Assembly: GCA_016871615.1 (NCBI GenBank)
Contig: VHCX01000025.1
Span: 1-45,448, forward strand
Length of the DNA stretch: 45,448 nt
Source of the DNA: Verrucomicrobiota bacterium
Lineage (GTDB): Bacteria > Verrucomicrobiota > Verrucomicrobiia > Limisphaerales > UBA9464
Reading direction: 5' to 3'
The translations under genes were made by a program, and so were the position numbers. This document shows positions 43,441 to 45,341 of the stretch, in pieces. The stretch's first letter is position 1. Each line of letters opens with the position of its first letter. The notes below the pieces were generated by a model. It did no database searches, was not told the DNA's origin, and worked only from the letters and a program-made list of their open reading frames with translations.

Positions 43441-43460
43441 GCCAGGGTCTTTTGTTCTGA
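43441..43460 (+). repeat. Left terminal inverted repeat of the IS
   Basis: GCCAGGGTCTTTTGTTCTGA. It matches the complement of the right end at 45322-45341 in 19 of 20 positions. The single mismatch is C in place of T at position 17. Confidence 0.88.
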
Positions 43461-43538: not shown

Positions 43539-45316
43539 ATGAAACGCCTGCACCAATCTTCATCAGGTTCAACTTCCGCAACGACCTCCGTCCGCTTGGC
43601 ATCTTCCAAGGAAGACCAAGCATGGTTCGATGCCCAACTGGATTCTTTCCATGACCTGGGTGCCACGTCACCCATCGGGGACTTTCTCCGTCAGATCGTC
43701 GAGATCGACTCGAAGCCGGTGGCCCTTCTGGCCTGGGGTCCGGCCTGTTATGCCCTCAAGGATCGCGATCGCTGGATCAGTTGGAGCGCTCCCCAGCGGG
43801 TCGCTCGCCTCAAACTCATCGTCCAGAACCGCCGACTGCTGATCCTTTCACCCAAAGGTGCTTCCCCCAATCTGGCATCACAAGCCATGGGCGCCGCACT
43901 CCGAGCCCTTCCTGCCCAATGGTTGGAAGTCTTCGGCTACCAACCGCTCCTGGCCGAGAGTTTCACCGATCCAGAGGGCTACGCCGGCACCACCTACAAG
44001 GCTACCAATTGGCAACTCCTCGGCACCACCCAGGGCTATGCCCGAAGCCGCCTCGACTTCTACGTCCCCAATGAAAGCCCCAAGCGCCTCTGGTGCCTGG
44101 AGCTCCACCCCAAGGCCCGCGGCATCCTGCGCTCACAGGTCCTGCCCGATTCCTACGCCAAAGCCCTGTCCACTGTTCCCCAAGGACTGCTGCCTTTGTC
44201 CACCGGCCAGTTCGAAACCCTCCGCAAAGCCTTTGCCGCCGTCCCAGATCCCCGCCGCAAGGCGGGCAATCACCAGTTCTCCATCGGCATGGTCCTGAGT
44301 CTGGTCGCCATGGCCCTCTTGTCCGGTCGCAGGGAAATCGCCGAAATCAGCCGCTTTGCCCAAAGCCTCAGCCAAGATCAGCGCAAACGCCTTGGACTGC
44401 CCTATTCACGCACTTCGACCAAATGCCGCCGTGTCCCCGGCTACTCGGTCATTTACCAGATCCTCCGACGCGTGGACCCGGCCGAATTGAATCGGGTTCT
44501 CAACGACTGGTTGACCGCCCATGCCTCACAACTGCCACAGGCCTTGGCCTTGGATGGAAAGATGGTTCGCGACCACTTCGGCGTCCTGAGCCTGGCCCGC
44601 CACGGTGACGGAGCCCCCGAAGCCATGGCCCTGTACGATCAAAAGGAAGGCACCGAGCGCAGCGAGCAACAGGCTGCGACTGAGCTGCTCGATTCCATGG
44701 GAAGCCTCGATGGAAAGGTGATCACTGCCGATGCGCTGCATTGCCAGCGCAAGATCGCCCGGACCATAGCCGAGAAAGGGGGCGATTATCTCCTGCAGGT
44801 CAAAGGCAACCAACCCTATCTGGAGAAACAGGCCCTGAAGAAGGCGTCGGCCCCGGGTACCCCCTTTTTGAAGCAAGCCAAGTAGGCCACGGCCGTGTCG
44901 ACAGCCGAGCCATCCACGCCTTCGCCACCGATGGCATGGCGGTGGATTTTCCGTACGCACGTAGTCTGGTGGTCGTTCGAAGTCGGAGGTCCGAGAAGCG
45001 CTCCGGCAAGACCACTGAGGAGATACGTTACTACATCAGCAGCCTCGAACCGGAGGATCTGACGCCAGAACAATGGCTCCAGTTGATCCGAGGCCACTGG
45101 GCCGGTGTTGAAAACCGCAACCACTGGCGGCGGGATGCACTGATGGGAGAGGACCGCTCCCGGAGCCGAAGCCGATCTCTCCTGACCAACCTGGCCCTGA
45201 TCCGCAACGGGCTCCTGAGGGTCCTCAATCGCTGTTTTCCAGGCGATTCAATCCCCGTCATCCGGGAACGCATCCAAGCCAAAACCTCCCTCGCATTCAG
45301 AGCCCTCGAGGCCTGA
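43539..45316 (+). pseudogene. ISAs1-type DDE transposase with an N-terminal DUF4338 (DruA-like) domain, frameshifted
   Basis: The first frame (43539-44885, 448 residues) contains a DUF4338 domain like that of the Druantia anti-phage protein DruA (about 45-195: RDRWISWSAPQRVARLKLIV, NLASQAMGAALRALP, YAGTTYKATNWQLLGTTQGY). Next come an ISAs1-associated domain (about 228-310: LRKAFAAVPDPRRKAGNHQF) and the first two catalytic residues, D339 (LDGK) and D398 (TADALHC). It then stops at TAG 44883-44885. The next frame carries the rest (GHGRVDSRAIHAFATDG, GHWAGVENRNHWRRDALM, with the third catalytic residue, Glu at 45110-45112). One added base in the C5T5 run at 44860-44869 joins them into about 592 residues. 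It is either an inactivated transposase, a base-calling error, or less likely a programmed -1 frameshift. Confidence 0.86.
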
Positions 45317-45321
45317 ACCGG

Positions 45322-45341
45322 TCAAAACAAAAGACCCTGGC
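45322..45341 (-). repeat. Right terminal inverted repeat of the IS
   Basis: Read on the minus strand: GCCAGGGTCTTTTGTTTTGA, matching the left end in 19 of 20 bases. It lies 5 bases after the transposase stop. Confidence 0.88.

Follow-up and report, generated by a model that had tools for sequence, protein, structure and literature searches.

A candidate Mom-like DNA-modification domain in ISAs1-family transposases and a predicted slippage run that joins their split reading frames

Why should a domain filed under the name of an anti-phage defence protein, DruA, stand at the head of a transposase gene? This question is raised by an insertion sequence at one end of a 45,448-nt stretch of DNA from a Verrucomicrobiota bacterium (contig VHCX01000025.1; the whole stretch that was analyzed is called the window below). 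Our answer, to which we give an even chance of being right, is that the element belongs to a large and old subfamily of ISAs1-family insertion sequences with an N-terminal Mom-like GNAT domain, which is filed in Pfam as DruA.

Organization of the element

The ORF that starts at position 43539 matches PF14236 (DruA, formerly DUF4338) over residues 19-168 (43593..44042, plus strand), with an E-value of 3.9e-16 and 59.5 bits against a cut-off of 27 in a Pfam profile search; the structural domain covers approximately residues 12-200. The PADLOC DruA model recognized the same domain at an E-value of only 0.007. The DruA match is followed by DDE_Tnp_1_assoc (PF13808, the ISAs1 N-terminal part; 44229..44513, plus strand) and by the first part of DDE_Tnp_1. 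By repeat search, the element is approximately 1.9 kb long and is bounded by inverted repeats at 43443 and 45339. The left repeat (CAGGGTCTTTTGTTCTGA; 43443..43460, plus strand) and the right repeat (45322..45339, minus strand) follow the 18-bp sequence CAGGGTCTTTTGTT[C/T]TGA and have the CAGGG start of ISAs1-type ends, which is shared by elements with 10-bp target duplications in two other genomes (G422 and G419). The original prediction that a DruA-like domain precedes an ISAs1 DDE transposase, within an element with its own inverted repeats, was therefore correct, and the N-terminal similarity to DruA on which it relied is significant.

The window element is a single copy in its own genome, the contig ends 109 bp downstream, and no recognizable target duplication was found at the element ends. 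It codes for transposase ORFs only, and the Druantia operon genes DruE and DruD are absent. Another DruA copy in the same genome is a degraded remnant that is interrupted by an internal stop and lies near an integrase-type ORF (L002:201-701, G000:C117).

The fusion had been described as one reading frame, but the region 43539-45316 consists of two overlapping frames. ORF A (43539..44885, plus strand) encodes 448 aa that include the DruA-like domain, the ISAs1 N-terminal part and the DDE domain up to its second Asp. The final third of the DDE domain contains the catalytic Glu and is encoded in the -1 frame relative to ORF A by ORF B (44741..45316, plus strand), which would be used from approximately 44870 in a trans-frame product of ~590 aa. 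The NCBIfam ISAs1 profile NF033564 (cut-off 70 bits) scores 98 bits on ORF A, which covers its N-terminal half, and 81 bits on ORF B. The DDE triad is complete but split: D339 (LALDGK; 44553..44555) and D398 (ADALHC; 44730..44732) lie in ORF A and the Glu of the HWAGVEN motif (45110..45112) in ORF B, all on the plus strand.

With other ISAs1-family elements (NF033564; PF13808 and PF01609) the fusion subfamily shares the DDE transposase, the CAGGG ends and, in intact relatives, the 10-bp target duplications. It differs from plain ISAs1 elements in the additional N-terminal Mom-like domain of ~200 aa and in a conserved C/T run that splits many of its members, whereas the full-length plain ISAs1 frames that were seen are single ORFs of 380-389 aa.

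Distribution and mobility of the DruA-ISAs1 fusions

A contig scan identified at least 539 relatives in genome contigs of Verrucomicrobiota, Kiritimatiellota, Lentisphaerae, Bacillota, Pseudomonadota, Acidobacteriota, Chloroflexota and others; many of them are metagenome-assembled, and host names are given as deposited. Within the phylum, the ORF A query is matched in 55 of 387 genomes when either half is counted, and PF14236 itself in 41 of the 387. The fusion is thus not confined to a single sequence. In the genomes searched, the domain was found more frequently in mobile elements than in defence loci, which supports the mobile-element part of the original interpretation. Plasmids of Candidatus Thiodictyon also carry the fusion, annotated merely as an ISAs1 family transposase. 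Uninterrupted ORFs of 590-650 aa are common among the members from Pseudomonadota and Acidobacteriota, and single-ORF relatives include elements with perfect 10-bp target duplications.

Single genomes may contain many copies of the domain: a Bryobacterales MAG has 32 of them and a Paracoccaceae MAG has 18. Eight DruA-ISAs1 elements of Bryobacterales (2.15 kb, 97-99.5% identity) and three identical elements of Paracoccaceae possess CAGGG ends and perfect 10-bp target duplications; the relatives with such duplications come from G422 and G419. Four identical frameshifted copies of 1906 bp with different flanks are present in one Puniceicoccaceae genome (G048), and no target duplications were detectable around these four copies. 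At least a dozen DruA-ISAs1 copies, several of them broken, were observed in Candidatus Synoicihabitans palmerolidicus (L081-L142, contigs JAGGDC01), suggesting a burst in a symbiont genome. Judged from the sequences collected, the DruA-ISAs1 fusion is widespread and old.

Other transposase partners of the domain

The domain is also found with other transposases. In the Tn5-type fusion it is combined with Tnp_DNA_bind, DDE_Tnp_1 and Dimer_Tnp_Tn5, and in the IS701-type fusion with a DDE_5 transposase, while in IS66 elements it is encoded by a separate gene that abuts or overlaps tnpC. Such genes are located at IS66 tnpC on the same strand in L243 and L275 (G420) and in L255 and L257 (G422), where they have ~120 or more extra N-terminal residues of no recognized kind. 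Among 129 distinct domain copies, 83 are ISAs1-fused, 16 Tn5-fused, one IS701-fused and nine are adjacent to IS66, the rest being fragments or unassigned; because of the query used, ISAs1 fusions are over-represented in these counts. By its domain content, the same kind of fusion is recognizable in at least three unrelated transposon families (ISAs1, Tn5-type and IS701).

In a quick tree of the 129 domains, a branch with a support of 98 separates the ISAs1-type copies from the Tn5, IS66 and IS701 types, suggesting one old ISAs1 fusion and not many recent ones. In the open-licence literature, we found no paper that links DUF4338/DruA to transposases.

Similarity of the domain to Mom of phage Mu

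The AlphaFold model of the window domain, built from 65 sequences, has a pLDDT of 92.4 and a pTM of 0.86; in the full-length fusion model (8 sequences), the DruA part is of low confidence. The best Foldseek match of the domain model in the PDB is Mom of phage Mu (8bv8, E-value 1.9e-8), a GNAT-superfamily adenine modification enzyme (PF25680). A comparison by VIA-align gave Mom a Z-score of 14.6 over 169 residues, followed by the next GNAT at 12.1, and identity to Mom in the structural alignment is 17%. At the profile level, hhalign matched the whole domain to ten Mom-family proteins with a probability of 96.1 and an E-value of 2.9e-9, and a wider alignment (A1) matched the Mom profile with 97.6 and 2.9e-12. 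The Pfam Mom model gave weak matches in 29 of the 65 domain members, the single-sequence matches being below cut-off, and the generic Acetyltransf Pfam models were not among the matches of the domain at E<0.1.

The residues aligned with Mom are His, Arg, Asn, Ser124, Asp and the motif G-x-x-Y-x-A-x-N/G-F/W. The Ser, Arg, His, Asp, Gly and Tyr aligned with the Mom active site are conserved across the subfamily. Ser114 (43878..43880, plus strand), which is aligned with Ser124 of Mom, is present in 82 of 83 ISAs1 fusions, 16 of 16 Tn5 fusions and 9 of 9 IS66 neighbours; the PDB entry 8bv8 is the inactive S124A mutant. Arg99 was found in 83 of 83 ISAs1 fusions, as well as in all 16 Tn5 fusions and 9 IS66 neighbours, G150 and Y153 likewise in 83 of 83 ISAs1 fusions, and His38 in 78 of 80. 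At position 39, a Tyr is present in 70 of 80 ISAs1-type relatives and in Mom, and the window copy has Asp39 in place of this Tyr of the HY pair, so that this particular copy may be impaired. Conservation is higher in the domain than in the transposase part (0.55 vs 0.47 and 0.56 vs 0.44), indicating that the domain is not a passenger.

Mom and the DruA-like domain are further alike in that both sit in transposing elements. They differ in that Mom occurs as a separate protein and has a dedicated regulator, Com, whereas the DruA-like domain is here fused to an IS transposase. Mom puts an acyl group on adenine N6 (PMC7824862). DUF4338 had already been assigned as a GNAT domain in the context of DndF (PMC10853773); its apparent relation to Mom and its transposon setting were not found in open-licence papers.

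Two other functions have to be weighed against base modification. The domain could be a non-catalytic DNA-binding module for IS ends or targets, which retains the GNAT fold and performs no chemistry; its N-terminal position in the transposase, the usual place of DNA-binding domains in many transposases, and its association with several transposase families would suit this role. We regard it as rather unlikely, because the Mom-type residues, including the catalytic-equivalent Ser and the Arg, are near-invariant in four transposase contexts, as is unexpected for a pure binder, and because the Tn5-type partners already bring Tnp_DNA_bind, by which end binding is covered. The original proposal of end recognition received no positive support: a GNAT model closest to Mom, with the aligned active-site residues kept, speaks for modification of a base and not for binding. 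Against base modification it may be held that proteins, RNA and small molecules can also be substrates of a GNAT fold, and the domain might thus regulate transposition by acylating RNA or a protein, such as the transposase, RNA polymerase or another host factor. The protein and small-molecule acetyltransferases that Foldseek also returned for the domain model are consistent with this possibility, as are known phage GNATs that acetylate RNA polymerase (PMC7824862), but it appears somewhat less probable still, since Mom stands clear of other GNATs by the structural scores given above, the Mom profile match spans the whole domain and the aligned signature is that of Mom.

Relation to Druantia and other DruA loci

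A bona fide Druantia I locus (L315) was identified by a DruA1 match with an E-value of 1e-196, together with DruD1 and DruE1. The DruA1 proteins (L315 and four similar, five sequences) could be aligned with the transposon domain over the first half only, with an hhalign probability of 95. They possess LGGKL or LCGKL where the transposon domain has N-L-A-S. Its E-x-F-x-D/GTCYxA region is replaced in them by GK/RSSxYNR, a motif that was not found in the window domain. The profile of the five DruA1 sequences gave no match to Mom (probability 0.4). Druantia type I DruA (PADLOC PDLC00001/00002; PF14236) is therefore homologous to the transposon domain over its N-terminal half and lacks the Ser and E-x-F-x-D positions, having its own GK/RSSxYNR motif and no Mom signature. 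The kinship between transposons and Druantia that had been proposed holds for that half of the domain, and Druantia DruA appears to have lost the Mom signature. On these five sequences, the defence DruA is a distinct and probably altered branch, and function cannot be transferred from one to the other.

Several other DruA relatives were observed. In DUF4338-DndF fusions, DUF4338 was termed a GNAT domain (PMC10853773); these belong to a defence context and to the DruA1 subtype without the Mom signature. A DruA1 domain fused N-terminally to an SspF-like protein, with an SspH-like gene adjoining (L239:6078-9698, G282:C127), fits this description. Two loci (L316:7876-11997, G602:C25; L317:3269-7397, G464:C74) contain a DruA1-type gene, a gene for ~400 aa of unknown function and a HerA-like ATPase gene replacing DruE, a possible uncharacterized DruA+HerA operon. 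Finally, a stand-alone 318-aa distant DruA relative (L240:8288-9244, G129:C341) has the defence-type motif GKSSLYNR.

A conserved C/T run at the frame junction

The predicted slippage site of the window element is CCCCCTTTTT (C5T5; 44860..44869, plus strand); the 45-kb window contains no other 10-nt pyrimidine two-block. Relatives that are 30-70% identical possess a run of ~10 nt at the same place. A pyrimidine two-block or a homopolymer of 7-9 nt was found in 36 of 42 junction windows, compared with 0.28 per kb elsewhere in the same ORFs. In 25 of 26 elements, the longest pyrimidine block is this run, which typically measures 10 nt. In split relatives, the frame changes just upstream of the GHGR motif, ~225-232 nt upstream of the HWxxE motif. 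The window element thus combines overlapping frames with a conserved slip-prone run at their junction, as is characteristic of insertion sequences that use slippage.

The direction of the shift follows the order of the run: CnTm sites are associated with the -1 frame and TnCm sites with the +1 frame, as expected for realignment via a single rU:dG pair. The exceptions are two elements with C10 runs, which are +1, and a few decayed copies without a run or with odd frames. One ISAs1 gene (L031:1474-2583, G209:C284) no longer has the DruA domain but retains its C-terminal tail; it reads in a single frame and carries C7T4 at the slip position, as a naturally frame-corrected derivative. Stem-loops directly 5' of the slip site found no support as a general stimulator, with a mean z-score of -0.25 over 36 sites.

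Transcriptional slippage at T5C5 with a 1-nt deletion was shown for a Roseiflexus insertion sequence (PMC5009743). This IS630-type element, with its 10-nt T/C block, 1-nt deletion to the +1 frame and one rU:dG mismatch, is similar to the +1 group described here, but it belongs to a different IS family and needs a stem-loop (PMC5009743), which is not general here. The CnTm/-1 type of the window is the mirror image of the Roseiflexus T5C5 and would need a 1-nt insertion.

A ribosomal shift, either a programmed -1 shift at C/T runs or a +1 shift at CCC before a stop or slow codon, could join the frames without slippage of RNA polymerase. The +1 group agrees with it in part: T4-6C4-8 members have CCC followed by T in the 0 frame at every site, five of them being CCC TGA, a shift-prone combination already known (PMC5009743). 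According to the same paper, however, no IS with +1 ribosomal frameshifting had been identified (PMC5009743). We consider ribosomal shifting about as doubtful as the DNA-binding role of the domain, since the total run length stays at ~10 nt and the direction follows run order, as for one rU:dG mismatch, and since the codon phase at the C/T boundary is not fixed in the -1 group, where CCC|TTT, CCT|TTT and CCC|CTT all occur. Canonical -1 ribosomal heptamers were rejected as candidates, because this varying phase argues against them. Decay of the window copy to a pseudogene with an indel in a homopolymer, a known hot spot in which indels are common, would agree with its single copy, missing target duplication, Asp39 substitution and proximity to the contig end (109 bp), but is the least probable alternative, since some 36 relatives down to ~30% identity are out of frame at the same site with a ~10-nt run, the two run orders pair with opposite shift directions, and the mobility of such elements is evident from the four identical frameshifted copies within one genome. 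Many ISAs1 fusions apparently depend on a programmed slip at a single short C/T run to make the full enzyme.

Proposed function and implications

The best reading of the domain, on which we are evenly divided, is a Mom-like DNA-base-modifying module that was recruited repeatedly by transposons. The fold and the fusion are computationally well supported. The evidence is computational throughout and consists of homology, a fold prediction, the conservation of residues, the association with several transposases, signs of mobility in the relatives, and a conserved run with consistent direction. From these we infer the enzymatic activity and its purpose, DNA as the substrate, protection in cis, and slippage rather than ribosomal shifting.

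Most likely, a base in DNA would receive an acyl-type group from the domain, as adenine N6 does from Mom. The attachment of the domain to the transposase would direct this modification to the ends of its own element or to transposition intermediates. Mom shields the DNA of Mu, another transposing element, from restriction, and the purpose of the domain would most plausibly be a similar shielding of element DNA from host restriction. A slip of RNA polymerase at the ~10-nt C/T run would restore the frame before the catalytic Glu and give the full transposase; it would be needed in the window copy and in most Verrucomicrobiota and Bacillota copies. Without the slip, the product would be a protein of DruA and half of the DDE domain, without the Glu, which could still modify or bind DNA and could not transpose. 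The level of slippage might thus set the ratio of this short form to the full transposase.

It can be speculated further, with slightly less than even confidence, that at least four transposon families are joined with a Mom-like hypermodification enzyme that marks their own DNA, either by fusion (ISAs1, Tn5-type and IS701) or as a neighbour (IS66). PF14236 would then be mainly a transposon epigenetic module and Druantia DruA a catalytically altered offshoot of it, and the order of C and T would set the slip direction by which one gene gives two products, a short one that modifies DNA and a long one that transposes.

These observations have consequences for annotation: labelling PF14236 matches as 'Druantia DruA' mistakes transposons for defence genes, because the bona fide DruA is a different subtype. 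For work on transcriptional slippage, the junctions are a large natural collection of C/T-run sites, with the mirror-image CnTm class among them. DruA/DUF4338, described as a domain of unknown function, gains a concrete and testable chemistry hypothesis. Simple insertion sequences may resemble phage Mu in having a DNA-modification enzyme of their own, in their case linked to the transposase.
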